NCBI GenBank assembly: GCA_947482665.1
Contig: CANKJK010000002.1
Coordinates: forward strand, 186,001 to 250,000
DNA length: 64,000 nt
Direction of reading: 5' to 3'
DNA from: Acidobacteriota bacterium
Lineage (GTDB): Bacteria > Acidobacteriota > Vicinamibacteria > Vicinamibacterales > UBA2999
Made by a program: the position numbers and the translations under genes. Of this stretch, positions 46,130 to 64,000 are shown in pieces. Every line of letters begins with the position of its first letter. Positions within the stretch are counted from its first letter, which is position 1. Below the pieces are notes generated by a model, which saw nothing but the letters and a program-made list of their open reading frames with translations, did not search any database and had not been told where the DNA came from.

Positions 46130-46148
46130 GTGCGTGTTCCTTTCGCGC

Positions 46149-47510
46149 CTAGACGCCCGCCAGCGGGCCGGAGCTGTCGCCCATCTGCTTGACGCCAATC
46201 CCGAGCTTGTTCAGCAGTGCGAGATTCAGGTTCATGAACGGAATGTTCTCGCCAACCGGATACACCAGCGACCGGCTGCCCTTGAGCTGACCGCACAGGC
46301 CGCCGACCATCGTGATCGCCAGGTTGTGCGGGTCGTGCGCATCGGCGTCGCCCATGCCGCTGCCGTGCACCAGCAGTGAGTGGTCAAGCAGATTCCCGTC
46401 GCCATCAGGCGTCGCCTTCAGCTTGCCAGCCAGATACGCGACCAGCGACGCGTGGTACGTGTTGATCCGCGTGTGCATCGCCATCCGCTCCGGGTTGTGC
46501 CCATGGTGGGACACGGAGTGGTGACCATCGGTCACGCCCACGTTCGGATAGGAGTGGTCGCTCTGCTCGCGGGAGATCTGGTAGGTCACCACACGGGTGA
46601 TATCCGCCTGCCAGGCGAGGAACACCAGATCCCACATCAGCTTCGAGTGATCGTCGAACGACTCCGGGATCGCGGCGGGCCGCGTCATCGGAATCGGCGA
46701 CTCGCTTGACCGCGCCTCGGCGCGCTGAATGCGGCCCTCAACGTCGCGGATGGTGTCGAGGTACTCATTCACCTTGCTGCGATCAGACGGGCCGAGCTTC
46801 TTCTGCAGGCCCACCATGTCGGCGCGCATCGCATCGAGGATGCTGCGGTTGTTCCGGAGGCGCTCCAGGCGTGCCTTGCCCGTGGAGCCATCGCCAAACA
46901 GCCGCTCGAACACCACGCGGGGATTGGTCTCACCCGGCTGCGGCATCGTCGGCGTGCGCCACGACATCGCGCTCTGATAGACGCAGGCATAGCCGTTGTC
47001 GCAGTTGCCGGTCATGTAGTTCGCCTCGAGGGCAATCTCGAGCGACCGCAGGGGCGTGTCCGTCCCGAGCGTGTCCGCGGCGTACTGATCGACCGTCTCA
47101 CCGAGTTCGATGTCCGCGCCCTCGGTGTACTTGGCCCGAGCGCCGCTCAGGTAGGCCGTGTGCGCCTTGGTGTGCGGTGCGCGGCTGTTGCCACGCGACT
47201 CAGCCGAGGGGCTCGCCAGCCCCTGAACCGCGACGAGCTGGTCACGGAAGGGAGCGAAGGGGCCGAGCGTCGTCGAGAGCTTGAACTCCGCGCCCTCGGC
47301 CGCGATGCCCTGCTTGCCGTTCGGGTACCAATCCTCAAGCAGGATGCCATTCGGCACGTAGGTCCACAGCATCCGGGGAATCGGCTTGGCGGCCGTACGG
47401 ACCTCGGCGGTCAGCGCGGGCACCATCGCATCCAGCAGGGGCAGTCCGAGCGCGACACCGGTCCCACGTAGGAAGGTCCGACGGGGCAACGCGAGTTTCA
47501 TGATGTTCAT
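46149..47510 (-). CDS. DUF1552-family exported protein (copy 2)
   Basis: A 453-residue paralogue of the 37704-39059 product. The leader L-A-L-P-R-R-T-F-L-R-G-T-G-V-A-L-G-L-P-L-L (about 6-26) is twin-arginine-like. It keeps Y-V-P-N-G-I, V-Q-G-L-A-S, R-V-V-F-E-R-L-F-G-D-G, V-N-E-Y-L-D-T-I-R-D-V-E-G-R-I, Q-I-S-R-E-Q-S, V-S-H-H-G-H and H-G-S-G-M-G-D-A-D-A-H-D. It follows a DUF1592 gene (copy 2) by 31 bases, so both pairs keep the same gene order. Function is unknown; export with the DUF1592 partner is implied. Confidence 0.88.
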   Translation of the reverse strand: MNIMKLALPRRTFLRGTGVALGLPLLDAMVPALTAEVRTAAKPIPRMLWTYVPNGILLEDWYPNGKQGIAAEGAEFKLSTTLGPFAPFRDQLVAVQGLASPSAESRGNSRAPHTKAHTAYLSGARAKYTEGADIELGETVDQYAADTLGTDTPLRSLEIALEANYMTGNCDNGYACVYQSAMSWRTPTMPQPGETNPRVVFERLFGDGSTGKARLERLRNNRSILDAMRADMVGLQKKLGPSDRSKVNEYLDTIRDVEGRIQRAEARSSESPIPMTRPAAIPESFDDHSKLMWDLVFLAWQADITRVVTYQISREQSDHSYPNVGVTDGHHSVSHHGHNPERMAMHTRINTYHASLVAYLAGKLKATPDGDGNLLDHSLLVHGSGMGDADAHDPHNLAITMVGGLCGQLKGSRSLVYPVGENIPFMNLNLALLNKLGIGVKQMGDSSGPLAGV

Positions 47511-47541
47511 GACGAGATTCTCCTCAGCCAGCTCTCTTCGC

Positions 47542-49986
47542 CTAACGGGATGCAGTCTTCGTCACCGGTGCGGCCCCATCGGCCGCCCGGCGCATCTGGA
47601 ACGGAACGCTGCGCACGATGCCCAGCACGACATCCGAGAACTTATAGCCACCGGCGCCGGCCCCACGCACCACCGAGCGGACGCTCGGCTGGTCGTAATA
47701 CTCAAGGCCGCGACCCAGCGCATAGATCATGAGCTTCTCCGTGACCGCCGTCACGAAGTTTTCCGGGGCCCGCACCAGGGCACCGCGGAAGGCCGACAGG
47801 CCATCAAACTTGGCGCCGTCCGGCATGGCGCCTGACGCATCGATGGCGACGAAGTTCTCGTCAACCTTGCGGAACTGCCCGACCGGGTTGAAGTTCTCCA
47901 GCGCAAAACCCAGCGGATCAATCATCGCGTGGCAACTCGCGCAGACCACGTTGCCGCGGTGGGCCGCCATCCGCTCCCGCATCGTCTGCGCGAGGACGGT
48001 GCCCGATTCCTTGAGCGGCGGCACGTTGGCGGGCGGCGCAGGCGGCGGCGTCCCCAGGATGTTCTCCAGGATGAACTTGCCGCGCACGACGGGGCGCGTA
48101 CGGATCGGGGAGGAAGTCAGCGTCAGGATGCTGCCCTGCCCCAGGAGGCCCCTCCGGGAGTTGTCAGCTGGGAACGTGACCCGGCGGAAGTGGCTGCCCT
48201 TCACGCCCTGAATGCCGTAGTGCTTGGCGAGCCGTTCGTTCAGGTAGGAATAGTTCGCCGTCAGCAGGTCCACGATCGGGCGATCGTCATGCCGGATGCT
48301 GTCCACGAAGAGTTCCGTCTCGCGGCGCATGTACTGCTTCAGGCTGTCATCAAAGTTCGGGAAGAGCTGCGAGTTGGGTCGCACCACTTCCACCTTGCGA
48401 AGCTGCAGCCACTGGCCGGCAAAGTCCTCCGTCATGGCGGCGGCGCGCGGATCAGCCAGCATCCGGCGCACCTCGCGCGCCAACACGGCCGGCTCCCGGA
48501 GGCGGCCGGCCGCCGCAAGCGCGATCAGGGCATCGTCCGGTCCGCTCCGCCAGAGGAAGAACGAGATCCGCGAAGCCAGTTCGATGTCAGGGATGCGGTA
48601 GTTCGCTCCCGCCACGACGCCCGCCGGGTCTGTCTCCACCCGGAACAGGAACGACGGGCTGGTCAGCACACGGCGCAGCGCCAGATCGAGGCCCGCCTCG
48701 AACCCATGCACCTTGCCGCGCGTAAAGAACTCCATCAAGCCGTTCACTTCGACAGGGGACACCGGCCGCCGATAGGCACGACGCGCGACGGTCGAGAGAA
48801 TCCGGCGGGCGCACGGCGTCTCGTCGACGGCCGTCGCCGGCGCGCAGACGAGCAGCCGCCGGCGTGCCGGGGTATCGCCTGGGCCTCCGGGGTTGTACGG
48901 CCCTCCGACGGTGATGCTCTGGATGGAGGGCTGATACACAGCCATCCAGTCCGCTGCCACGGCATTCGACCGGTGCATCGGCTTGTCGAACTTCTTCCGC
49001 ATGCCGTCAAATTCGTCCACAGACGGCTGCTTGAGGAACCAGACGGCGACCTGGTGCGGGCCCGCCTTCACGGCCGCCTGCACCTTGTAGGACTCCTTCA
49101 TCTCCCCTTCCGGGCTGCCCTTTTTCGGCAGACGGATGAGCGTGACGCGTTCGCCGTCGATGGTGAGTTCCATCTCGTGCGTGTCGGGGAAGACGCCTGC
49201 GCAGCCGCTCTCGCCGGTGACGATCGAGCCGCACATCATCTTCATCTCAAAGGTGTACTCGCCGTCGCGCGCAAACATGTACGTGGCACGCATGCCGCCG
49301 CGGGTCCCCATCGGGAACCCTTCCAGCCGCTCGTCCTGCGAGTACTCGTATGACGCCCGGAACTCCTTGAATGCGGGTGTGGCATCGCTGCCCAGCACCG
49401 TGGTGGTGATGGTGCCGGCGGCGGACAAGTACTGCTCCATCAGCGATTCATTGAGGGTCAACGTGCCCGCGATGTTGTCGAAACCAAAGCTCGGGTTGTC
49501 GACGGGCAGTAGATCCGCCACATCGACGTCGATGTCGAACACGTCGCGCACCACGTTCCGGTACTCGGTCCGGTTCAGGCGGTGGAAGGTGTCCTTGCGG
49601 CCGGGATTGGGACGCGCGGCGGCCTGCTGGTCGAGGCGGGACTGCAGCGCGGACACCAGCGAGGTATAGGTCTGCGCGTCGGGACGCGGGCGCCCGGGCG
49701 GCGGCATGAGGCCGGCCCGCAGCTTCCGCACCACGCGCTCAAGCGATTCGGCGCTGGTGGCCAGGTCGTCGAACTTGACGTTATCGAGAGCGAATCCCCC
49801 GGCATTGGCCTTATTGCGCTCGGTATGACACGTCACGCAGTACTGCTGCACCAGCGCCTGCTGGGGCGCGAGCGAAGCGGACTTCGCCGCCGCGGCTGGC
49901 GCACCGTGCGGCGCTGCAGCCTGGGCAACCAGTCCCACGACAGTCAAAATTCCCACGGTCATACTGACCGTACGGACGGTCTTCAT
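47542..49986 (-). CDS. DUF1592-family exported cytochrome-like protein (copy 2)
   Basis: An 814-residue protein starting at ATG 49986 behind GGTGGAGGC. The signal peptide (about 8-24) leads to a cytochrome module with C50-V-T-C-H54. The train DUF1587 (L-N-R-T-E-Y-R-N-V-V-R-D-V), DUF1595 (C-A-R-R-I-L-S-T-V-A-R-R-A-Y-R-R-P), DUF1592 (I-E-L-A-S-R-I-S-F-F-L-W-R), DUF1588 (C-A-S-C-H-A-M-I-D-P-L-G-F-A-L-E-N-F) and DUF1585 follows. Compared with copy 1 it has an extra 30-40 residues around the central domain, with C-G and C-A pairs. It is paired with DUF1552 copy 2, the secreted ankyrin protein and the octahaem cytochrome. Confidence 0.9.
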   Translation of the reverse strand: MKTVRTVSMTVGILTVVGLVAQAAAPHGAPAAAAKSASLAPQQALVQQYCVTCHTERNKANAGGFALDNVKFDDLATSAESLERVVRKLRAGLMPPPGRPRPDAQTYTSLVSALQSRLDQQAAARPNPGRKDTFHRLNRTEYRNVVRDVFDIDVDVADLLPVDNPSFGFDNIAGTLTLNESLMEQYLSAAGTITTTVLGSDATPAFKEFRASYEYSQDERLEGFPMGTRGGMRATYMFARDGEYTFEMKMMCGSIVTGESGCAGVFPDTHEMELTIDGERVTLIRLPKKGSPEGEMKESYKVQAAVKAGPHQVAVWFLKQPSVDEFDGMRKKFDKPMHRSNAVAADWMAVYQPSIQSITVGGPYNPGGPGDTPARRRLLVCAPATAVDETPCARRILSTVARRAYRRPVSPVEVNGLMEFFTRGKVHGFEAGLDLALRRVLTSPSFLFRVETDPAGVVAGANYRIPDIELASRISFFLWRSGPDDALIALAAAGRLREPAVLAREVRRMLADPRAAAMTEDFAGQWLQLRKVEVVRPNSQLFPNFDDSLKQYMRRETELFVDSIRHDDRPIVDLLTANYSYLNERLAKHYGIQGVKGSHFRRVTFPADNSRRGLLGQGSILTLTSSPIRTRPVVRGKFILENILGTPPPAPPANVPPLKESGTVLAQTMRERMAAHRGNVVCASCHAMIDPLGFALENFNPVGQFRKVDENFVAIDASGAMPDGAKFDGLSAFRGALVRAPENFVTAVTEKLMIYALGRGLEYYDQPSVRSVVRGAGAGGYKFSDVVLGIVRSVPFQMRRAADGAAPVTKTASR

Positions 49987-50050
49987 TGAGCCTCCACCGG
50001 AAAACACGTAAAAGGTACCACCCTTGGCAGGCGTCCGCTGTCGCAAATTA

Positions 50051-52692: not shown

Positions 52693-55683
52693 TCAGAAAG
52701 TCATGGACACGCCAAAGCGCGCCACACGCGGGGCGAGAATCTGGCTCACCAGATTGGCGTTTGACGCGTTCTGGACGACGCGCCGAGCCAGGTCGGTGCT
52801 CGCGTTGAAGATGTTGAAGACGTCCAGCGTCGCCTGAATCCTGCGGGGGCCCATGCGCCAGGACTTGTCGAGGCGGAAGTCCGTCGAACTGAAGACCGGC
52901 AGCCGGACATCCCCCACCTGGTCGAGCAACACCTGGACGGCCCCGGCCCGATTGGGTCGGGTCGCGATGTTGATCGAGGGCAGCAGGGGGTACCCCTGAC
53001 GCAGGTCGACAGTGGAGGCCAGCCCAATCTCGTGCCACGGGAGACGGTAGCTCCCCTGGAAACGCGTGATCCACTTGGCGTTCGGGTTGCTTGGATCCAG
53101 GCCACCGGTCGACACGCTGGGGGCGTATTGCGCGTTGTGCTGCTGGGCCACGTTGGTCGGGTCCTCGTAGGAGTCGGGCGAGTCGAACCGCAGCACGGTG
53201 CTGTTGTAGGCGAAGCTGCCGTTGAGCATCCACCGCTGCGACATGCGCTTGCGCACCATGAGCTCGATCCCGTTGAACTTTCGGAACTGATCGGGCTGGT
53301 TGGTCAGAATGGAGGCCGCTGGAACCGGGATGTTCGGCACCCAGTAGGTCACCGTGTCGCAGCGCGCGCCGGCTGGACAGGTGGCGGCCTGGGGCGTGAA
53401 GGTCGCCTGGGTGTAGTCGGCCGAGGTCAGGCCAATCCGGTCGTTCCAGGAGAAGTCGGCATAGCGGCGCCACACGTAGCTGGCGCTGACGCCCACTTGT
53501 CCGGGCAACTCCTTGTTGATGCCGACGACGATCTCGTCCGTTCGAGCATTCCTGATCTTCGGGTCCACCCGGTTCGGACTCACCTGAAGGCCGGGGTTGT
53601 TCGGATCGAAGCCCGCGCTGAACGACAGGATCGTGCGGGTATCGACCTCATTCGCCTGTACGACCTTGTCGCCGTTCAGGTCCTGCCAGGGCAACTCGAG
53701 CGTGTTGGCGCCAATGGTGTTGAGCGTGCCTGAGAGCTGGCCCGGGCTGCGTTGATCGTAGTACTGCGCATAGGACCCTTTGAGGACCGTCTTGCCGTCG
53801 CTGAAGAGGTCCCAGGTCACGCCGAGACGCGGCGCGAAGTTGTTCCAGACGGGCATCCCCTTCAGGCCCGCGAAGTCCACCGCCGGAAAGTAGTTGAAGG
53901 TGGCACCGTTCGAAGTGACCTGCCCCTGGAACGGGGACGCCGGCACGGTCGCCGCGCCCTGCCAGTCGTCCTGCCGGTCGAATCGGAAACCCGCAATCAC
54001 CGTGACGGCGCCGCGGGTGTAGGTGTCCTGGAAGTACAGCGAGTGCTGTGAGAGGTACTGCTCGCGCACGCTGTCGCGCGAGAAGAGCGCGCTGAACGGC
54101 GTCGAGAAGGGCGCCGCCGTGCGCCCGCTATTGAAGCGAGCGATGACATTGCCACCGGTGTGCGCGGTCGTGATCGACGGGTAGTAGAAGTACTTGTACC
54201 CCGCCCGGAAGGAATGGTCGCCCCCGAGCTTACCCGGCAGGAAGTAGTTCGTGATGACGTCCACGTTGTTCTTGATGATGAAGTTGACGCTGTCGCTGAA
54301 CGAGCGATCCCACAGGCTGGTCGCGACCTCGAACATCGGCTGGACCGTCTTGAGGTTGTCCTCGGCCAGAGCGATGTAGGTGCACGGGCAGAACCGCGCA
54401 TAAGCCACTTCCACCATAAAGCGGTCCGAGAACGTGTGCTGGTCGCCGAAGCGCCAGAAGGGCGGCCAGCCCGTCGTCCAGAACTTCGGCCCGAGCGCCT
54501 CATCCACGGCCGTCAGCCGCGTGGTCGAGGCGAAGGGGTGCAGGTCATCAGCCCCGCGGTTGAGCTGCAGCTTCAGGTCATAGCTGTTGCGGAAGCTGAA
54601 CTGATTCCCCGTGAAGGGCTGCAGACTGATCTTGTAGTTGATATGGCGGAGGTCGTTCGTGCTGGGCTCAAGGCACTTCCGCACCTCGCCCACGGAATGG
54701 CCGAGCGGTGAGGATGCGACCGCTCCACAGTCACCGGTCTTCTTGTAGTAGCTGTTGGCACCGACCGCGACCTGCTGGCGGCTCAGGCCGCCCCAGAACC
54801 ATGCGCGGCCCTTCTTGAGCGGTCCGCCGACTTCGAACCCGTAGTCCTTGATGTTCAGGATCGGACTGCCGGAGGAGGTGCCGCGCTGGCGCAGCGCATC
54901 GGACACGTTGTTGGCCTCGAATCGCTGGTCCGTGAGGAAGCCCCGCGCCGACCCCTTGAAGCGGTCGCTGCCGCTCTTCGTGATCATGTTGATCGTCGCG
55001 CCCGAGGTCTGCATCGTCACGTCCGCGCCGCCGGTATTGATCTGCACTTCTTCGAATGAGTCGAAGTCCATGTAGTAGGGCAGGTTCGCGCCTGTGCCGG
55101 CGTCGGCGCCATCCGAGAAGGTCCGGACCTGACCGGCCGATGCGCCCCGGGACAGCATCGTGTTCTGCTGGCCCAGATTGCTGCCGCCGACATTCTGCGT
55201 CGCCACGACGACGGCCGGCGCCTTGTCGAACATGCTGAAGATGTCGCGTCCCGTGGGCAGGGCCTTGAGTTCCTCGGTGTTGAAGCGCGCGCCCTGCGTG
55301 GTGCTGCGCACGTCGATAATCGGACTCGCCCCGGTCACCACGACATCCTCGTTGAGCGAGGCGATCTGCAGTTCACCGTTGACCTGCGCGTTGAAGCCGC
55401 CCTGCAGCTGGATGCCGGACTTCACGACGGCGGAAAAGCCCGCGAGTTCGAATCGCACGCTGTAGGTGCCGATGGCCAGGCCTGGAAACTGGTAGGTGCC
55501 GGTTTCGCTCGTCACCGCCACCCGGGGCTGGAGCAGTACCGGGCCGGACACCGTCACGGTCACGCCGGGGAGGACGGCGCCCGACGCATCGGTCGCCTTG
55601 CCGAAGATCTGACTGTTGGACTGTGCGTCTGCGATACCCGCCGCCAGCATGGCAGCCAGGAGAAACGAGAGGACACGCGCCAT
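52693..55683 (-). CDS. TonB-dependent receptor, Oar-like with carboxypeptidase-regulatory domain
   Basis: A 996-residue protein starting at ATG 55683. Signal peptide (about 1-20, L-S-F-L-L-A-A-M-L-A-A-G, ending A-D-A-Q). A carboxypeptidase-regulatory-like domain (about 25-100) shows G-K-A-T-D-A-S-G-A-V-L-P-G-V and E-T-G-T-Y-Q-F-P-G-L. The plug has E-D-V-V-V-T-G-A-S-P-I-I-D-V and N-T-M-L-S-R-G-A-S. A long barrel ends in R-F-G-V-S-M-T-F, with the terminal Phe used for outer-membrane insertion. It is a large nutrient receptor paired with the two downstream propeller genes. It diverges from the TAXI receptor module. Confidence 0.9.
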   Translation of the reverse strand: MARVLSFLLAAMLAAGIADAQSNSQIFGKATDASGAVLPGVTVTVSGPVLLQPRVAVTSETGTYQFPGLAIGTYSVRFELAGFSAVVKSGIQLQGGFNAQVNGELQIASLNEDVVVTGASPIIDVRSTTQGARFNTEELKALPTGRDIFSMFDKAPAVVVATQNVGGSNLGQQNTMLSRGASAGQVRTFSDGADAGTGANLPYYMDFDSFEEVQINTGGADVTMQTSGATINMITKSGSDRFKGSARGFLTDQRFEANNVSDALRQRGTSSGSPILNIKDYGFEVGGPLKKGRAWFWGGLSRQQVAVGANSYYKKTGDCGAVASSPLGHSVGEVRKCLEPSTNDLRHINYKISLQPFTGNQFSFRNSYDLKLQLNRGADDLHPFASTTRLTAVDEALGPKFWTTGWPPFWRFGDQHTFSDRFMVEVAYARFCPCTYIALAEDNLKTVQPMFEVATSLWDRSFSDSVNFIIKNNVDVITNYFLPGKLGGDHSFRAGYKYFYYPSITTAHTGGNVIARFNSGRTAAPFSTPFSALFSRDSVREQYLSQHSLYFQDTYTRGAVTVIAGFRFDRQDDWQGAATVPASPFQGQVTSNGATFNYFPAVDFAGLKGMPVWNNFAPRLGVTWDLFSDGKTVLKGSYAQYYDQRSPGQLSGTLNTIGANTLELPWQDLNGDKVVQANEVDTRTILSFSAGFDPNNPGLQVSPNRVDPKIRNARTDEIVVGINKELPGQVGVSASYVWRRYADFSWNDRIGLTSADYTQATFTPQAATCPAGARCDTVTYWVPNIPVPAASILTNQPDQFRKFNGIELMVRKRMSQRWMLNGSFAYNSTVLRFDSPDSYEDPTNVAQQHNAQYAPSVSTGGLDPSNPNAKWITRFQGSYRLPWHEIGLASTVDLRQGYPLLPSINIATRPNRAGAVQVLLDQVGDVRLPVFSSTDFRLDKSWRMGPRRIQATLDVFNIFNASTDLARRVVQNASNANLVSQILAPRVARFGVSMTF

Positions 55684-55819
55684 GGGTGCTGCTCCGTGAG
55701 AAAGCCGCCGCTGACGGAAATGGGCGGAAGGCCGGAGGCTAGCACGCGCCTCGGAGAGCCGACCTGTCTCAAATTGTCCTCGCACGCGTGCCCCGGCGCT
55801 GCCGCGCGCGGTCGATCGA

Positions 55820-55825
55820 TACACT
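55820..55825 (+). promoter_or_regulatory. Possible leaderless -10 element of TAXI receptor 1
   Basis: TACACT ends six bases before the GTG at 55832, placing transcription start at the start codon. There is no Shine-Dalgarno and no clear -35. Confidence 0.35.
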
Positions 55826-55831
55826 TTCCCG

Positions 55832-56854
55832 GTGTCTCCCCTGCGGGTTCACCCTCGGCGGCTCTCGCCTCGTCTCCTCGGCGTCTCGATCCTCGCGGTC
55901 GCGGTCCTCCTGGGATGCCGGACGGCGCCGGATGCGCAGCAGCCCCCCCAGGTCACGCTGCGGATGGTCGGGCCTGACCCGGCCGCGGCACTGGTGACCG
56001 CCTTCGCGCGGCGGGTGCCAGGGGTCACGATTGCCCTGCGGCAGACCAGCAGTCCGATGCTGGCCGTCCAGGCCATCGAGCACGACGACACCGACCTGGG
56101 CCTGGCCTTCGCGGACGCCGCGTATACGGCGCATGTGCTCGACGGCACCGGTTCGAAGATGCGTGCGATCGCTTCGCTGCACGTCGCGCCTCTCTTTCTC
56201 CTGGTGCACCCGGATTCCGGCATCCGGCGCATCTCGGATCTCCCGGGCCACACCGTGCGCCTGACCAGTGCCGGCCCTGGCGAAGATCCACGATTCCGCC
56301 TGCCGTTTCGTGCGAGCGCTCCAGGCGACAGCGCCCCGATGGACTCGTCGGTGTCATCCCTTTCCGCGCTGGTGCTCAGTGCGTTCGGCCTGCATCAGTC
56401 CAGCCTGCTCGTCAGGGACATGGCACCGCCGGAGGGTCTCGCCGCGCTCCGGGCCGGGACCCTCCAGGCCTACTTCACGTCGGCACCCTCGGACGATCTC
56501 GTCCGCGAGGCCACTGGCGCGGGCGCGCGGCTCGTGCCGATCGAAGGTCCGCAACTCGACGCCCTTCGCCGCCGCTACCCGTTCGTGCAGCGCGTCCGGA
56601 TCGAGCCGGGGACCTATCCCGGACAGACCGACATCCTGCACACCGTAGGCGTCGGCCTGGTGCTCGTCTGCCGCGCCGACCTCGCCCCGGACGTCGTCTA
56701 CCGGCTGACCCGCGCGGTCATCGAGGAACTGGAGCAGGTGTCGGGCCAGCAGACCGTCCTGGGCCGCATCCGCCTCGACCGCGTCCCTGTCACGCCGATT
56801 CCCCTTCACCCTGGCGCGGCCAGGTTCTACCGCGAGTGGGAACTGTTCCGATGA
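55832..56854 (+). CDS. TAXI-family extracytoplasmic solute receptor, lipoprotein (copy 1)
   Basis: A 340-residue protein with GTG start. The signal ends in a lipobox, A-V-L-L-G-C (Cys about 29), so it should be anchored to a membrane by lipid. The TAXI/NMT1-like binding fold shows D-L-G-L-A-F-A-D-A-A-Y, L-H-V-A-P-L-F-L-L-V, I-S-D-L-P-G, then G-T-Y-P-G-Q-T, T-V-G-V-G-L-V-L-V-C-R-A-D-L, and the C-terminal P-I-P-L-H-P-G-A-A-R-F-Y. TAXI proteins normally feed TRAP carboxylate transporters; here no TRAP membrane subunit is nearby. Instead a histidine kinase begins inside its stop (ATGA), implying a sensing role. Confidence 0.87.
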   Translation: MSPLRVHPRRLSPRLLGVSILAVAVLLGCRTAPDAQQPPQVTLRMVGPDPAAALVTAFARRVPGVTIALRQTSSPMLAVQAIEHDDTDLGLAFADAAYTAHVLDGTGSKMRAIASLHVAPLFLLVHPDSGIRRISDLPGHTVRLTSAGPGEDPRFRLPFRASAPGDSAPMDSSVSSLSALVLSAFGLHQSSLLVRDMAPPEGLAALRAGTLQAYFTSAPSDDLVREATGAGARLVPIEGPQLDALRRRYPFVQRVRIEPGTYPGQTDILHTVGVGLVLVCRADLAPDVVYRLTRAVIEELEQVSGQQTVLGRIRLDRVPVTPIPLHPGAARFYREWELFR

Positions 56855-58503
56855 CCCGCGGACGCCGTTCGATCCGCCCCGCCTGGCTCGCGGCCCTCAC
56901 CGTCGCGGCCACGGCCACGCTGGCGTGGACCAGCTATCAGGCCATCACGGCCTGGCGGCTCAGTGCGGCACAACTCGCGGACCGACGGGCCGAATCCTCG
57001 GTCAACCTGCTGGTAACGGCGCTGACCCGCGACATGCGCGCCGTGCAGACGCTCGTCCTCGCGCCAGCGATCACGAGTTCGCCGCAGGCCCTCACGGAAC
57101 AGGTCGCGGGCGCCTTCGCCCGCTATCCCTATCCGGATGTGTTCTTCGCCTGGCGCCGCACGGGGCGCGACGCCGGCCTGACCTTCTTCACGCGCACCGA
57201 TCGGCCGCCCTCGTGGCTGGCCGGCCCGGAAGCCCCCGGGTACGAATCGCTCCGGACGGTGGACAACCCCGTGCTCAGCCACGAGATCCTGGCCCGTCTC
57301 GAGCTGGACGCCTCCCGCTCCAGCCCCGTGGCGTTCTTCAACATCACCCACCACGGCACGGCGTACCAGCTCGTGGCCCAACTGGCCAACCGCGAGTCGG
57401 AGAGCGAGACACTCGACGCGGTCTTCGGCTTCCTCGTGGACCTGACCTGGGTGCGCGAGCACTATTTCGCCGGCATGGCCGACCAGACCCGCGGGATCGG
57501 CGGCATCGACCCGGCGATCACCTTCCGGATCCGGGACGCGGCCGGCCACAGCGTCGTGGGCCCGCAGGATGGCCGCCGTGCGCAGGGCCGCGCCTTTCCC
57601 CTGCTGTTTTTCGATCCGGTCCTCACCTCGTCCGCTCCGGCGCGGGACCTGGTGCGGGAGGTCTGGACGGCGGAAGCCGTGGTGGGCGATGACCCGGTGC
57701 TCGCAGCCGCGAACAAGGGCGCTCGTCAGGCCCTCCTCCTCGTGGGCCTGGCGGCTCTTGCACTGGCCGCCGGAGTCGTCCTCACGGTCCGTGCCGCCAA
57801 CGCCAGCGCCGATCTGGCCCAGATGCGCGCGGACTTCATGCTGGCGATCACGCACGAGCTGAAGACGCCCATTGCCAGCATGCGGGCGCTCACCGAGACG
57901 CTCGCCGCGGGCCGGGCGTCCGGCCCGGACATGGCGCGCGAATACGGCCGGCTGGCCGCGCATGAAGCCAAGCGGCTCGGCCGGTTGATCGAGAATCTCC
58001 TCGCGCACGCGCGGATTACCGATGTCACGCAGGCGTATGCCTTCGAGGTGGTCGGGGTCGATGTGCTCGTCGACGAAACGATCGGCGACTTCTCGACGCA
58101 GCTCGAACACGGCGGATTCGACGTCGACATTCACCTGGCCGCGGACCTGCCGCCGGTCCGCATCGACCGCGCCGCGATGCGGCTGGCACTCGGCAATCTT
58201 GTCGACAACGCCATCCGCTATTCCGGAACGTCTCGGCTGCTCCAGGTGCATGCGCGGGCGGATGGGGCATCAGTCGCCCTCGAGGTCTCTGACCGCGGTG
58301 TCGGCATCCCGCCCGACGAGATCCAGCACGTGTGGACGAAGTTCTTCCGGGGCCGCCGGGCAGCGGCCGGCGGCAGTGGCCTGGGGCTGGCCATTGCCCA
58401 TCGCATCGTGACGGACCATGGCGGCTCGCTCTCCGTCGAGCCGCGCGACGGCGCCGGCACGACGGTCCGCATCATCCTTCCCTCAGCAGAACAGACATCA
58501 TGA
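56851..58503 (+). CDS. Sensor histidine kinase paired with TAXI receptor (copy 1)
   Basis: A 550-residue membrane kinase. TM1 is at about 11-30, and a periplasmic sensor region (about 31-285) carries R-D-M-R-A-V-Q, A-R-Y-P-Y-P-D-V-F-F, T-F-F-T-R-T-D-R and G-F-L-V-D-L-T-W-V-R-E-H-Y-F. TM2 is at about 288-308. The cytoplasmic part is a HisKA helix with H335 in T-H-E-L-K-T-P-I-A, then an ATPase domain with N-L-V-D-N-A-I-R-Y, D-R-G-V-G-I and G-G-S-G-L-G-L-A-I. It overlaps the TAXI gene by ATGA and the regulator gene by ATGA. It is likely activated by the ligand-loaded TAXI lipoprotein. Confidence 0.92.
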   Translation: MTRGRRSIRPAWLAALTVAATATLAWTSYQAITAWRLSAAQLADRRAESSVNLLVTALTRDMRAVQTLVLAPAITSSPQALTEQVAGAFARYPYPDVFFAWRRTGRDAGLTFFTRTDRPPSWLAGPEAPGYESLRTVDNPVLSHEILARLELDASRSSPVAFFNITHHGTAYQLVAQLANRESESETLDAVFGFLVDLTWVREHYFAGMADQTRGIGGIDPAITFRIRDAAGHSVVGPQDGRRAQGRAFPLLFFDPVLTSSAPARDLVREVWTAEAVVGDDPVLAAANKGARQALLLVGLAALALAAGVVLTVRAANASADLAQMRADFMLAITHELKTPIASMRALTETLAAGRASGPDMAREYGRLAAHEAKRLGRLIENLLAHARITDVTQAYAFEVVGVDVLVDETIGDFSTQLEHGGFDVDIHLAADLPPVRIDRAAMRLALGNLVDNAIRYSGTSRLLQVHARADGASVALEVSDRGVGIPPDEIQHVWTKFFRGRRAAAGGSGLGLAIAHRIVTDHGGSLSVEPRDGAGTTVRIILPSAEQTS

Positions 58504-59192
58504 AGAAACGCGTGCTCGTCGTGGAAGACGACCCCGGCCTTGGCAGGGCCATCAGTGACAACCTCAGACTTGACGGCTATGACGTGGAGTGCGCCGCTGA
58601 CGGCGCGACGGCCCTCACCACGGCACGGGCCTTCTCCCCCGATCTCATCGTGCTCGACCTGATGCTGCCGGACCGGGACGGCTTTGAGCTCTGCGCGCGC
58701 TGGCGGCAGGAGGAGATCCCCGTCATCATCCTCAGCGCCCGCGGCCAACGGGAGGACAAGCTCCGCGGACTCTCGCTCGGCGCGGATGACTACGTCACGA
58801 AACCCTTTGATCTCGAGGAACTCCTGGCGCGGATCCGCGTGGTGCTGCGCCGCACGGACCCCGGCCTCTCCCGCGTCGTGCTGGGGCCTGTCACGATTGA
58901 TCTCGTGACGCGCGCGGCCTGGCGCAATGGCGTGGCGATGGAGTTGACGGGCCGGGAGTACGAAGTCCTGCGCTATCTCGCGTCCCGCCCCGACCGCGTC
59001 GTCCGCCGCGAGGAACTGCTGCGCAATGTCTGGGGCTACACGGAAAGCCCGGTCAACAGCCGCGCGGTCGATCACGCCATCGCCCGGCTACGCCGGAAGA
59101 TCGAGCCGGACGCCCACCACCATCAATTCCTGCATACCGTCTATGGGGACGGCTACTGCCTCACCCCGAAGGGCGGCGGGGCCGGACACTAG
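58500..59192 (+). CDS. OmpR/PhoB-type response regulator
   Basis: A 230-residue regulator whose ATG overlaps the kinase stop (ATGA). The receiver has E-D-D (9-11), phosphoacceptor D53 in V-L-D-L-M-L-P-D-R-D-G, the switch region L-S-A-R-G and the conserved Lys in V-T-K-P-F-D. The C-terminal winged helix (about 130-225) has L-T-G-R-E-Y-E-V-L-R-Y-L, E-E-L-L-R-N-V-W-G-Y, and V-D-H-A-I-A-R-L-R-R-K-I ending with V-Y-G-D-G-Y. Cognate to the upstream kinase. The second TAXI-kinase module downstream lacks its own regulator, so this protein may serve both. The frame is open earlier, but only within the kinase gene. Confidence 0.93.
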   Translation: MKKRVLVVEDDPGLGRAISDNLRLDGYDVECAADGATALTTARAFSPDLIVLDLMLPDRDGFELCARWRQEEIPVIILSARGQREDKLRGLSLGADDYVTKPFDLEELLARIRVVLRRTDPGLSRVVLGPVTIDLVTRAAWRNGVAMELTGREYEVLRYLASRPDRVVRREELLRNVWGYTESPVNSRAVDHAIARLRRKIEPDAHHHQFLHTVYGDGYCLTPKGGGAGH

Positions 59193-59297
59193 CTCCCGAT
59201 CGCACACATCGCGCCGACCGCCGTGCACCAGCCGGGTGTCCTTTCTGGGCGCCCGCGGAGCACAGGCCGCGCCTTACACCGACGCCAGCCCAGCCTT

Positions 59298-59816
59298 TCA
59301 GGGCTTCGGCTGGTACTTGTCCGGGAAGGTGTGAATCGCCAGGTAGGAGACGCTCTTCGGTACCTCGACCCACTGGTGCGGCATGCCCACCTGCACGGTG
59401 ATCATGTCGCCGGTCTTCATCTGAAACCGGCGCCCCCCTTTGATGGAGGCGGCGACCCAGTCGCCCGTGCCTCGGGGCTTCGGTTCCACCAGTTCCCCGC
59501 CGAGGACGAGCGTGCCACCGCCTTCTTCAATGATGAAGATGTGTCCGAAGGTGGAGTGCACCTCGGCCTCCGGCATGGTCGGGCTGGCCACCTTGCGGCC
59601 CATGCTGACGCGGATGCCCAGGTCGAGGTCCCGCGAGATCAGCTCGTTGGTGTGCCGCGCGGCGACGGTACCCGTGCGGATCGTCTCCTCGTGCTCGGCG
59701 GCCGGCACGTGAACAATTCGCTCAGGATATTGCGGAGGCATCGCTCCGGCCTTCACGGCCGCCGCGGCCGCCACCGTCACCATTAATCCAACGACCAGCG
59801 TCAACATTCGCGTCAT
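59298..59816 (-). CDS. Exported cupin-domain protein
   Basis: A 172-residue protein starting at ATG 59816, which lacks a Shine-Dalgarno but has TACAGT eight bases upstream. A signal peptide (about 4-22, ending V-K-A-G-A) precedes a cupin barrel: H-S-T-F-G-H-I-F-I-I-E-E-G-G-G-T-L-V-L-G-G (metal ligands likely the two His), then G-D-M-I-T-V-Q-V-G-M-P-H-Q-W-V (third His). Single-domain cupins range from dioxygenases and isomerases to ligand-binding proteins, so the reaction is open. It lies on the opposite strand between the two TAXI modules and could be a target of the local regulator. Confidence 0.82.
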   Translation of the reverse strand: MTRMLTLVVGLMVTVAAAAAVKAGAMPPQYPERIVHVPAAEHEETIRTGTVAARHTNELISRDLDLGIRVSMGRKVASPTMPEAEVHSTFGHIFIIEEGGGTLVLGGELVEPKPRGTGDWVAASIKGGRRFQMKTGDMITVQVGMPHQWVEVPKSVSYLAIHTFPDKYQPKP

Positions 59817-59824
59817 GGCGCCCG

Positions 59825-59830
59825 ACTGTA
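59825..59830 (-). promoter_or_regulatory. Probable leaderless -10 element of the cupin gene
   Basis: Plus-strand ACTGTA reads TACAGT on the minus strand, exactly 8 bases before the ATG at 59816. No Shine-Dalgarno is present. Confidence 0.4.
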
Positions 59831-59866
59831 GCCGACCGCGGCGCGCACTCCAAGTCCCAAAATGTC

Positions 59867-59872
59867 GATAAT
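59867..59872 (+). promoter_or_regulatory. Probable leaderless -10 element of TAXI receptor 2
   Basis: GATAAT, a close match to TATAAT, lies exactly 8 bases before ATG 59881. No convincing Shine-Dalgarno. This spacing also favours ATG 59881 over GTG 59875 as start. Confidence 0.45.
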
Positions 59873-59880
59873 GAGTGACC

Positions 59881-60873
59881 ATGAAGCCGGCCGTCCTTGC
59901 CGTCGTGCTCCTGCTCGCCGGATGCCGCGCTGCGCCGCCTGCGGGAACGACCACGGCCAGGCCGGTCCTCAGAATCGCCGGGACGCGCCTCGCGGAAGCG
60001 CTGGTCCGGGAACTCGCCGCGGCCCGTCCGGATCTGGACGTCCGGCATGTCAACGCGACACCGCTGACGGCACCCGGCCAGGTCCGCGACGGAGAAGCCG
60101 AACTCGGCGTCACCTTCGCGGACTCCGTCTATTTCGCGCACCTGGCTGACGGCGACGCCGCCACGCACGGACTCCGGGCCATTTCGGCGCTGCACGTCGC
60201 GCCGATTCTGCTGTTTGTCCGACCTGCTTCCGGCATCGCGAACGTCCGCGACGTCCGGGGGCATCCGGCCCGCACGGGCCCCCCACCGGCCCCCGGGACT
60301 GACCCCCGGTTCTCCGGCTGGCCGGTGCCGCGCAGCCTCACCGGGTCCGGCACCGGAACGGTGGAGGGCATCACCGCGCTGCCGCAGCTGGTCCTGCTCG
60401 CCTACGGCATCACCCCCGGCGATGTCAAAAACCTCCCAGTCAATCCCGGTGAAGCGATCACGGAGATGGGCAAGGGGAAGATGGACGCCATGTTCGCCAT
60501 GGGCTTCGAGGCCAATACGTTCACAGCGCAGGCCCTCGCCCAGGGCCAGAAACTGATGTCCATCGAAGGGGCAGCCGTCGACCGCCTGCGGCGCGAATAC
60601 GCGTTCATCCGGCCCGTGACCATTCCGGCCGGGACCTTCCCGGGCCAGACGTCGGCGGTGCGGACCGTGGGCGTCAACATGATCCTGGTCTGCCGGGCGG
60701 ACCTGGACGAGCAGCTGGCGTACGACTTGACCCGCCTGTACTTCGCCGCCCTGCCCCGGATCGCCGCAGGAGGTGACGTGCCCGGCATCGACCCTCAGCA
60801 GGCGCCGTTGACGCCCATTCCACTGCACGACGGTGCCGCTCGCTACTTCCGCGAGGCCGAGCTGTTCCGCTAG
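59881..60873 (+). CDS. TAXI-family extracytoplasmic solute receptor, lipoprotein (copy 2)
   Basis: A 330-residue paralogue of copy 1. The signal ends in L-L-L-A-G-C, a perfect lipobox (Cys about 15). The binding fold shows E-A-E-L-G-V-T-F-A-D-S-V-Y, L-H-V-A-P-I-L-L-F-V, V-R-D-V-R-G, G-T-F-P-G-Q-T, T-V-G-V-N-M-I-L-V-C-R-A-D-L, and P-I-P-L-H-D-G-A-A-R. The fragments shared with copy 1 (P-G-Q-T, V-C-R-A-D-L, P-I-P-L-H, E-L-F-R at the end) show a common origin despite divergence elsewhere. The next gene, six bases on, is again a sensor kinase and not a TRAP permease. Confidence 0.87.
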   Translation: MKPAVLAVVLLLAGCRAAPPAGTTTARPVLRIAGTRLAEALVRELAAARPDLDVRHVNATPLTAPGQVRDGEAELGVTFADSVYFAHLADGDAATHGLRAISALHVAPILLFVRPASGIANVRDVRGHPARTGPPPAPGTDPRFSGWPVPRSLTGSGTGTVEGITALPQLVLLAYGITPGDVKNLPVNPGEAITEMGKGKMDAMFAMGFEANTFTAQALAQGQKLMSIEGAAVDRLRREYAFIRPVTIPAGTFPGQTSAVRTVGVNMILVCRADLDEQLAYDLTRLYFAALPRIAAGGDVPGIDPQQAPLTPIPLHDGAARYFREAELFR

Positions 60874-60879
60874 GTCACG

Positions 60880-62577
60880 ATGCCGGCGCCCACCCACGCC
60901 TCTTCGACCGCCGCCCCTCCGCGCCGCCGTAGGCGCCCCGTCACGGGGATCCTCGTGGCAGGCGTGGTCCTCTCCATCGGCGTACTCGCCTTCATCGGGT
61001 ATCGTGCCGTCTCCGAGTGGCAGCGCAGTGCGACGCTGCTCGCCAGCCGGCGCGCGGCGGCAGCCGTGGACCTCTTCGTCCAGGCCCTCGCCCGCGACAT
61101 GCGGGGCGCGCAGGCGTCGGTCCTGCCGTCGACTGAGCATGCCGACGCGGACAACGAGTACGACCTGGTCGCCAGTGCGTTTGGACGTTACCCCTACCCC
61201 GAAGTGTTTGTCTCTGCACGCCCGCCGCTGCTGGCCGAAACAGCCACGTTCTATACGCGCGTCGACCGCTCCGCACACTGGCTGCCCACGCCCGCCAACC
61301 ACGCCCGCCAGCCCGTCTCCGTCGCGCATACGCCAACGGTGGCAGCGCTGCTGCTCGCCCGCGTGTCGAGTGACTCCGCGAACGGCGCACGCTATTCCGT
61401 CTTCGACATCACCATCGACGGGCACGCGTACCAAGCCGTCTTCCTGATTTCGTATGCGGACGCCTATCGCGAACACGTGACAGGCGTCTTCGGGTTTCTG
61501 GTCAACCTGGCCTGGGTCCGCGACCACTATTTCGAGGACCTGTCCACGCAGGTGGCGCGCATGGCCGGCGGCGGCGTCACGTTGACGGTGACCGACGAAC
61601 GCGGCGTGCCGGTCCTCGGCCCTGCGCCCGCACACGGAGCGGACGCCCGTGGACAGCGGGTGTTTCCCCTGCAGTTCTTCGACCCGACACTGGTCGCGGC
61701 GCGCCAGCCGGCCGACCTCGCCCTGCGCACCTGGACCGCGGGCGCCAGCGTCAGCGGGGACCCGACGCTGCACGCCGCCAACGAGGGCGCCCGGCAGACC
61801 CTGGTCATCGCGGCTGTCACGTCCCTCCTGCTGGCCATTGCCGTCTTCCTGAGTGTCCGCGCCGCCCGTGAGAGCGCGGCCCTGGCGGAGATGCGTTCGG
61901 ACTTCGTGGCCACCGTGACGCACGAGCTGAAGACCCCCATCGCCACCATCCGCGCCATCAGTGAAACCCTCGCGTCTGGCCGCGTGGACAACGCTGACGC
62001 ACGACGGGAGTACGCGCAGATGGCGGTTCACGAAGCCAAGCGCCTGACGCGGCTCATCGATAACCTCCTCGCCTACTCGCGGGTCACGGACGTCACCGAG
62101 GTGTATTCGTTCGAGGCCCTCTCACCCAACGAGATCCTGGGCGCGGCCCTGCGGGAGTTCTCCACGCAGCTGAGCGAGGGGCGCTTCGAGTTTCATATCG
62201 ACGTGGAACCCGACCTCCCGCTGGTGCGGGCAGACCGGACGGCCATCGGACTCGCGCTCACCAACCTGGTCGACAACGCGATCCGGTATTCGGGCGGGAA
62301 GCGCTTCCTCCGCTTGGCGGCGCACCGAGAGGGCGAGAGCGTGACGTTCGCGGTCGAGGACCACGGTGCCGGTATCGCACCGGAGGATCTGCCCAACGTC
62401 ACGCGACGCTTCTTCCGCGGCAGAGGTGCCGCCAGTGGCGGTAGCGGCCTCGGACTGGCCATCGCCCAGCGGATCGTGGCCGACCATCGGGGAAGGCTCA
62501 GCGTCTCAAGTACAGTAGAAGTCGGGACGACCGTCAGCTTCTCGCTGCCAACCGCCGCAGTATCTGCCCGCGGGTGA
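60880..62577 (+). CDS. Sensor histidine kinase paired with TAXI receptor (copy 2)
   Basis: A 565-residue kinase with a basic N-terminal tail, TM1 (about 22-40) and a periplasmic region matching copy 1: R-D-M-R-G-A-Q, G-R-Y-P-Y-P-E-V-F, T-F-Y-T-R-V-D-R, G-F-L-V-N-L-A-W-V-R-D-H-Y-F. TM2 is near 305-325. The HisKA helix has H348 in T-H-E-L-K-T-P-I-A-T, and the ATPase domain N-L-V-D-N-A-I-R-Y, D-H-G-A-G-I, G-G-S-G-L-G-L-A-I. No response regulator gene follows, so it is an orphan by position and may share the OmpR-type regulator at 58500-59192. Confidence 0.92.
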   Translation: MPAPTHASSTAAPPRRRRRPVTGILVAGVVLSIGVLAFIGYRAVSEWQRSATLLASRRAAAAVDLFVQALARDMRGAQASVLPSTEHADADNEYDLVASAFGRYPYPEVFVSARPPLLAETATFYTRVDRSAHWLPTPANHARQPVSVAHTPTVAALLLARVSSDSANGARYSVFDITIDGHAYQAVFLISYADAYREHVTGVFGFLVNLAWVRDHYFEDLSTQVARMAGGGVTLTVTDERGVPVLGPAPAHGADARGQRVFPLQFFDPTLVAARQPADLALRTWTAGASVSGDPTLHAANEGARQTLVIAAVTSLLLAIAVFLSVRAARESAALAEMRSDFVATVTHELKTPIATIRAISETLASGRVDNADARREYAQMAVHEAKRLTRLIDNLLAYSRVTDVTEVYSFEALSPNEILGAALREFSTQLSEGRFEFHIDVEPDLPLVRADRTAIGLALTNLVDNAIRYSGGKRFLRLAAHREGESVTFAVEDHGAGIAPEDLPNVTRRFFRGRGAASGGSGLGLAIAQRIVADHRGRLSVSSTVEVGTTVSFSLPTAAVSARG

Positions 62578-62668: not shown

Positions 62669-63715
62669 GTGGCACAGCGAGTATTGGTCACCGGCGGCAC
62701 CGGACTCATTGGCGGCGAGGTCATTCTGGCGCTGGCCCGGGCGGGCGTACGCGTCACAGCGGTGACCCGCGGAGGATCGCAGGCCATCGCCTCCCAGCGC
62801 CTGCGGGACCGGCTGCAGAAGTCACAGTGGTTTTCGCCGGAACTGCTGGGACAGGTCGAGGTCCTGGCTGGTGACACGACGCTGCCGGGTTTCGGGCTGA
62901 CGCCGCCGCTGGAGATTCCTCCGGACTGCATCGTGCACTGCGCGGCCAACACCCAGTTCAGCGACCGCGAGGAAGATGATGTCTGGCGGACGAATGTCGG
63001 CGGCGCCGAGCATCTGGTCGCCTTTGCCCGCGCGCATGCCCCCAGGGCGCGCGTCGTGTTCGTCAGCACGGCCTCGGTCACCACGGGTCCGGAAGGCGCC
63101 GTGGTCAACGAGGACACCGCGTTTCAAGGCTACGAGAATGCCTACACCCGGTCGAAGCGCCAGGCCGAGGCGATCGTCACCGCAAGCGGCCTGGATACCG
63201 TGATTCTGCGGCCCGCGATCGTACTCTCGCGCGGCATTGACGACGCGGCCATGGCACGCAGCATCCTCTGGGCCGTGCCGATCATGCGCGAGCTCGGTGA
63301 GGTCCCGGTCAGCCCGGACTCACACATCGACATCGTGCCCGTCGACTACACCGCCCAGTGCATCGCGGATGTCGCACTGGCACCCTCCCTTCCACACCGC
63401 CTGTACCACATCAGCGCCGGAACAACCTCTCAGTCGTTCAAGCAACTGCTGGATGCGGTTGCCGCCGAGTGTCCGGAGTTCAAGGGCATTGCCCCTGTCG
63501 GCCGCAAGCCATTGTCCAAGCGGGCCATGGCGCGCTTGATGCGGCCGCTGGAAAACTACCTGCCCTTCATGAACGCCGACATCCGCTATGCCAACGACCG
63601 GCTGCTGGGTGACTTCACCGCCATCGGCATACCCGCGCTGGCCACGTCGTATGTGCCGTCGCTGGTCGCGCTCATTTCGCTGGCCGACGCCCTGACCGAG
63701 ATGGTCCGCCCGTAG
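62669..63715 (+). CDS. NAD(P)-dependent reductase/epimerase of the extended SDR (thioester-reductase-like) type
   Basis: A 348-residue cytoplasmic enzyme with GTG start placed by a GGAGGA site. The N-terminal Rossmann motif V-L-V-T-G-G-T-G-L-I-G-G binds NAD(P). V-F-V-S-T-A-S-V supplies the catalytic Ser and A-Y-T-R-S-K the Y-x-x-x-K pair (about 172-176). The pattern L-A-G-D-T-T-L-P-G-F-G-L, I-V-H-C-A-A-N-T and I-D-I-V-P-V-D-Y is typical of the NAD-binding-4 (thioester reductase, male-sterility) branch, though sugar epimerases are related. The substrate is unknown. An SMR transporter gene follows with a one-base TAGTG overlap. Confidence 0.82.
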   Translation: MAQRVLVTGGTGLIGGEVILALARAGVRVTAVTRGGSQAIASQRLRDRLQKSQWFSPELLGQVEVLAGDTTLPGFGLTPPLEIPPDCIVHCAANTQFSDREEDDVWRTNVGGAEHLVAFARAHAPRARVVFVSTASVTTGPEGAVVNEDTAFQGYENAYTRSKRQAEAIVTASGLDTVILRPAIVLSRGIDDAAMARSILWAVPIMRELGEVPVSPDSHIDIVPVDYTAQCIADVALAPSLPHRLYHISAGTTSQSFKQLLDAVAAECPEFKGIAPVGRKPLSKRAMARLMRPLENYLPFMNADIRYANDRLLGDFTAIGIPALATSYVPSLVALISLADALTEMVRP

Positions 63716-64000
63716 TGCAAAGCTGGCTCGTGCTCGCGGCGGCGATTGTGTGCGAGGTGGGTGGCACGATCTGCATGGAACTCTCAAAGAGCCTCACTGA
63801 TCGCCGCTGGATCGCCCCCATGCTGGCGCTGTATCTGCTCGCATTGCTCGGACTGGCCATTGCCCTGAAGACGATCGACGTCGGCGTGGCGTACGCGGTG
63901 TGGGCCGGCACCGGCACGCTGCTCATTGCCACCATCGGGGTGTTCGCCTTCGGTGAGTCGATGTCCTGGCTCAGAGCGGTCAGCATGCTGATGGTCATCG
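63715..64000 (+). CDS. Small multidrug resistance (SMR/EmrE-like) transporter, truncated by the window end
   Basis: The frame starts at GTG 63715, sharing one base with the preceding stop, and runs out of the window after 95 residues. It is hydrophobic, with four predicted helices under way. The first helix has the conserved Glu in I-V-C-E-V-G-G-T (E14), and the third has V-A-Y-A-V-W-A-G-T-G-T-L, both SMR signatures. A small acidic loop F-A-F-G-E-S follows. SMR proteins export cations or quaternary amines by proton exchange. Most of the protein is present, but its C-terminus is outside the window. Confidence 0.88.
   Translation, partial: MQSWLVLAAAIVCEVGGTICMELSKSLTDRRWIAPMLALYLLALLGLAIALKTIDVGVAYAVWAGTGTLLIATIGVFAFGESMSWLRAVSMLMVI

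Follow-up and report, generated by a model that had tools for sequence, protein, structure and literature searches.

In the literature searched, TAXI-family binding proteins (SBPs) have only two kinds of partner, fused TRAP permeases and GltS. TAXI-TRAP proteins, exemplified by VcGluP/VcGluQM and TtGluBP, are stated in a review to occur always with fused DctQM (PMC5812351), and in Bordetella a TAXI lipoprotein (BP0403) is translationally coupled to GltS, a partner outside the TRAP family (PMC12344293). Signalling of SBPs through kinases is likewise established: about ten to eleven SBP-kinase couples are known, most of them encoded side by side, and receptor activation is known for at least 13 families of SBPs (PMC11113362, PMC9602780). 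Among the couples, BctC-BctE/BctD of Bordetella (TTT family) involves an SBP from a family of secondary transporters (PMC5812351, PMC9602780), and in CuaD-CuaS-CuaR the gene of a sensing SBP lies beside those of a kinase and a regulator (PMC10384115). LuxP-LuxQ is also made up of an SBP and a kinase. LuxP is soluble and belongs to another SBP family than TAXI, and LuxQ is a hybrid kinase. CuaD, again of a different SBP family from TAXI, is a cellobiose SBP from a Gram-positive host, which possesses a distinct ABC transporter for cellobiose in addition.

Our analysis of a 64,000-nucleotide stretch of acidobacterial DNA (the window; contig C2, 186001-250000, numbered from its first base) revealed two gene modules in which TAXI is the SBP and a histidine kinase the partner. 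We consider it probable that these modules are two three-component sensors of TAXI, histidine kinase (HK) and response regulator (RR), in which TAXI, co-opted from transport, gives the signal to the kinase. They share the TAXI fold and family profile with TAXI-TRAP systems, and several TAXIs closely related to them are TRAP-linked members of this order, but the partner here is a kinase instead of a TRAP permease. The TAXI-GltS pair differs in that its partner is a transporter and its TAXI carries an extra domain, and BctC retains the transporter that the present modules have lost. We found no description of a TAXI-kinase pair in the open-access literature searched; SBP signalling through kinases being already known, the new element would be TAXI as the SBP. 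The kinase modules would thus represent a third fate of TAXI, namely pure sensing.

Gene content of the two modules

Module 1 is encoded on the plus strand by TAXI1 (55832..56854), a TAXI-family lipoprotein with a GTG start and the lipobox VLLGC (TIGR02122 E 1.1e-39, NMT1_3 E 1.2e-32), HK1 (56851..58503), a sensor histidine kinase with two TM segments (HisKA E 3.6e-12, HATPase_c E 1e-25), and RR1 (58500..59192), an OmpR/PhoB-type response regulator (Response_reg E 2.7e-28, Trans_reg_C E 1.7e-23). The start of HK1 overlaps the end of TAXI1 in an ATGA at 56851, and the start of RR1 overlaps the end of HK1 in another at 58500. This module and the next are separated by a small cupin-like gene of opposite orientation (59298-59816, minus strand). 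Module 2 continues on the plus strand with the lipoprotein TAXI2 (59881..60873; lipobox LLAGC, TIGR02122 E 1.1e-36) and the sensor histidine kinase HK2 (60880..62577; HisKA E 1.9e-15, HATPase_c present), separated by 6 bases without overlap. Family calls were made with Pfam and NCBIfam profiles. On TIGR02122 (TRAP_TAXI; cut-off 84 bits) TAXI1 scored 136 and TAXI2 126 bits, and no other protein of the window's genome (G000) scored above the cut-off. The lipid-anchor Cys that ends both lipoboxes (LLGC in TAXI1, LAGC in TAXI2) is invariant across 32 relatives of the TAXI subfamily, and the H-box kinases and receiver/winged-helix regulator conform to HisKA/OmpR two-component systems. A first-pass annotation of the window had assigned the same five genes, families, overlaps and lipoboxes, all of which were confirmed by the profiles and by reading the DNA. 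It had also noted that no TRAP membrane subunit is present in the window; we found no match to DctM anywhere in the genome, which is 97.46% complete, so that fused DctQM occurs neither next to the TAXI genes nor elsewhere in it. A search of the same genome for GltS (Glt_symporter) likewise gave no match.

For HK2 the annotation had recorded no regulator and had proposed that it may share RR1. Both statements had to be given up. Module 2 has its nearest counterpart at locus L075 of genome G018, in which the genes for TAXI, kinase and regulator follow one another directly. The L075 regulator, used as a query on the window's genome, had its top match (76% identity) at 250111-250788 of contig C2. 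The matching gene, RR2, begins some 100 bases past the edge of the window on the strand of HK2 (window-equivalent 64099-64803, L226:3100-3804; Response_reg E 1.9e-26, Trans_reg_C E 6.7e-25) and is 74-76% identical to the L075 regulator, compared with 61% for RR1. From 62603 onward the genes on this strand are a Male-sterility-like NAD-binding reductase/epimerase (62669..63715, plus strand; NAD_binding_4 E 3.4e-32), a small multidrug resistance family transporter (63715..64000 and on to window-equivalent 64050, plus strand; Multi_Drug_Res E 1.4e-20), and then RR2; sister modules have no such insertion between kinase and regulator. Judged by its orthology to the L075 regulator, RR2 is the regulator of module 2, and both modules are therefore complete, module 2 with two inserted genes. 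Cross-talk between HK2 and RR1 may nevertheless occur, as the recognition positions differ little among close family kinases: residues +7, 8, 11, 12, 15 and 19 from the His read ASALTG in HK1 and ATAITG in HK2 and are near-identical among close family members. Two further OmpR-type regulator matches in this genome (C6:100511-101188 and C4:140398-141141) contain one in-frame stop each and are possibly pseudogenes or assembly errors.

The two modules are not recent copies of each other. TAXI1 and TAXI2 align with 40% identity, HK1 and HK2 with 46% overall and 39% over their sensor parts, and in the TAXI and sensor trees module 2 groups with a module of another genome and not with module 1. The term duplicated, as used in the annotation, is thus appropriate for an old paralogy, while a recent tandem duplication is ruled out.

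TAXI-kinase pairing in related genomes

A sensor-domain search of 162 genomes of the order, taken to be Vicinamibacterales from its Luteitalea members, separated two classes of hits, about 36 strong ones (>250 bits) and weak ones (<~116 bits). Outside the window there are 34 strong loci, spread across 29 genomes of several families, and a TAXI gene lies beside the kinase in 32 of them, upstream and on the same strand in 31/33. As in SBP-activated kinases of the LuxPQ and CuaDSR kind, the conserved arrangement is thus that of an SBP gene neighbouring a kinase whose periplasmic sensor is large (the latter according to the sensor model), and the lack of TAXI-kinase adjacency in related genomes that had been named beforehand as grounds for refutation was not what the neighbourhood survey found. 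DctM was beside the sensor-bearing kinase in none of the 34 related modules. Two loci depart from the pairing. At L200 the contig ends at the kinase; in genome G002, a kinase lacking TAXI (L193) and a TAXI lacking a kinase (L205) lie on different contigs. Each of these last two is closest to one half of a single module of genome G003, as if the pair had been split and both halves kept. L193 and L205 each adjoin a TonB-type receptor gene.

Loci of the weak sensor class encoded a response regulator in 8/8 cases and TAXI in 0/8. Several genomes of the order contain a related kinase family (L065-L072) whose sensor is of this class and which comes with a regulator but without TAXI. Conversely, DctM was present at every one of the 17 high-scoring TAXI loci in the order at which the sensor is missing. 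When 84,980 species were scanned with the TAXI alignment, eight of the best 80 TAXI loci had the sensor, all of them acidobacterial, and the rest were mostly TRAP-linked; among 396 genomes of the phylum Acidobacteriota, strong sensors were confined to Vicinamibacterales. A natural fusion of TAXI and sensor was looked for and none was found. At L120:6098-8807 an alphaproteobacterial TAXI gene, beside flagellar-looking genes, follows a small kinase-like ORF two genes further downstream and may represent an independent TAXI-kinase association.

TAXI and sensor also appear to have evolved together. Their distances correlate at 0.83 across 29 modules, a value that includes shared inheritance; the correlation is 0.58 with the kinase core removed, and that between TAXI and kinase core is 0.27 with the sensor removed, a comparison affected by differing rates. 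The clades of the TAXI and sensor trees are largely the same, and nearest neighbours were concordant in 20/32 modules (shuffled null: mean 1.0, maximum 7). Where a genome has several modules, the TAXI fits the sensor of its own kinase better than that of the sister kinase in 11 of 12 cases; the two modules of the window do so by a narrow margin (0.71 vs 0.68, 0.73 vs 0.67). Adjacency, tree congruence and paralog matching together lend good support to the annotation's central proposal that a TAXI lipoprotein and its kinase sense a ligand together, with no TRAP partner.

In the unrooted TAXI tree, three changes separate kinase-linked from TRAP-linked proteins. The kinase-linked TAXI of genome G361 (L197) falls inside a small TRAP-linked group (L079, L207, L208), and for this reason TAXI has probably switched its partner more than once, in either direction. 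These four close TAXIs, one kinase-linked and three TRAP-linked, are well suited to a study of the partner switch, and TAXI with TRAP versus TAXI with a kinase inside one order provides a natural contrast set for the change from receptor to sensor subunit.

Ligand pocket, sensor domain and proposed signalling

The model of TAXI2 (pLDDT 86) matches the TAXI crystal structures 1us4, 8s4j and 4ddd at TM ~0.7-0.8, and the subfamily profile finds TAXI structures at E ~1e-60. The residues for glutamate binding are not retained. In the alignment with VcGluP (8S4J), both TAXI1 and TAXI2 have a gap at the position of Tyr45 and a Phe in place of Gln93, so that the VYYP loop and the Gln of the glutamate site are lost, and the canonical GSGTE loop is replaced by a longer segment, modelled with low confidence in TAXI2. 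Tyr45 is found in 78% and Gln93 in 54% of TAXIs, and their mutation in VcGluP lowered the glutamate affinity 213- and 990-fold, respectively (PMC11574862). From these replacements we expect the ligand of TAXI1 and TAXI2 to be other than glutamate, or that there is none. TAXIs of the same subfamily in genomes G361, G148 and G020 keep near-canonical loops.

No Pfam family and no sequence of a solved structure matched the sensor alignment. The model of the HK2 sensor (pLDDT 90) is a tandem-PAS domain with a long N-terminal helix, and its best structural matches are dCACHE/tandem-PAS domains (Z up to 12.1), including the tandem-PAS periplasmic domain of LuxQ (Z ~10, and 9.8 in the complex with LuxP); Z values of ~10-12 with rmsd >4 support the fold class and not a function. 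By its model, the HK2 sensor is thus a dCACHE/tandem-PAS domain. A comparison with sensors from TAXI-less relatives, a narrow sample of 7 sequences, showed that the positions conserved in TAXI-linked sensors are kept there at 8/42 in the membrane-distal half and at 9/13 in the proximal half (p 0.0014), the lost positions being concentrated in the N-terminal helix and the distal half. From this pattern of residue conservation, the membrane-distal half is likely the docking surface for TAXI.

The course of signalling is most likely as follows. TAXI would act as a lipid-anchored Venus-flytrap SBP that has left transport, with a small molecule as its ligand at the membrane surface. It would then dock on the periplasmic tandem-PAS/dCACHE sensor and alter the activity of the kinase, which in turn would phosphorylate its own OmpR-type regulator (HK1 to RR1, HK2 to RR2), and the regulator would alter transcription; plausible targets are genes for outer-membrane receptors or for other uptake functions.

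Alternative roles of TAXI and candidate target genes

The pocket could also be read differently. The TAXIs might be ligand-free accessory activators, comparable to QseG for QseE, with the flytrap in a structural role, adjusting the kinase to the state of the envelope. Lipoprotein activators of kinases are known, as described for QseG-QseE (PMC6075780, PMC12691602), all members of the TAXI subfamily are lipoproteins, and the loop and residue losses of TAXI1 and TAXI2 fit such a role. However, the near-canonical loops of the three other TAXIs, a two-lobed fold that has been retained, and pocket residues that differ between subfamily members, as different ligands would predict, make this role unlikely in our opinion. 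We give far less credit to the idea that the TAXIs serve as receptors of a transporter whose genes lie elsewhere, with the kinase as no more than its regulator. Some DctM protein does occur in 19 of the 29 genomes with TAXI-kinase modules, but DctM is absent from the window's genome and from 6 of 20 such genomes of high quality. The recurrent unlinked permeases scored 12-53 bits on the profile of TAXI-type permeases, compared with 320-680 bits for TAXI-linked ones, and the SBPs beside unlinked TRAP permeases were DctP-type in all three cases tested. An unlinked permease as a hidden partner of TAXI is thereby rejected, and the TRAP permease gene consistently co-inherited from elsewhere, which according to the annotation would have spoken against sensing, did not emerge.

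Caution on the binding of TAXI to the sensor is nevertheless warranted, since neighbouring SBP and kinase genes can be functionally unlinked: no binding was seen for AgtB/PA0602-AgtS and PA4985-AruS (PMC11113362). Together with the resemblance of the sensor to dCACHE domains that bind ligands directly, and with distant sensor relatives that work without TAXI, these pairs would be in line with operon hitch-hiking, in which the kinase senses a ligand of its own via dCACHE and TAXI has an unrelated role. An adjacency maintained over 29 genomes and several families, the survival of both halves where a pair was split, and a matching specific to paralogs are hard to reconcile with hitch-hiking, which we therefore regard as highly improbable. 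Signal transfer from TAXI to the kinase thus remains our preferred reading. Its extension to the order as a whole, by which the Vicinamibacterales TAXI would have turned from transporter subunit into kinase co-receptor, with many paralogous non-glutamate sensors, docking at the distal lobe of an as yet unnamed sensor family and control of TonB-type uptake, is tentative and, taken as a package, possible rather than probable. If true, this switch would make TAXI a further family of binding proteins with a known role in kinase signalling. The analysis also names a testable sensor-TAXI interface in soil Acidobacteriota, which are abundant and hardly studied.

A TonB-dependent-type receptor gene on the minus strand (52693..55683; OMP_b-brl_4 E 2e-33, CarboxypepD_reg E 5.3e-14) diverges from TAXI1, and the two have an intergenic region of ~148 bases in common (55684-55831). 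TonB-type receptors make up 10 of the 47 genes adjoining TAXI-kinase modules, compared with 10 of 128 genes farther away (p 0.017); next to TAXI-TRAP loci the count is 0 of 29 (p 0.005). A promoter scan gave nothing above chance. The enrichment is suggestive of the receptor gene as a candidate target of the regulator. Farther upstream, at 44459-50046, the window contains a row of genes for an ankyrin-repeat protein, a DUF1552 protein and a DUF1592/1588/1587 cytochrome-type protein, and DUF1592-type genes are also found near the sister module L075.
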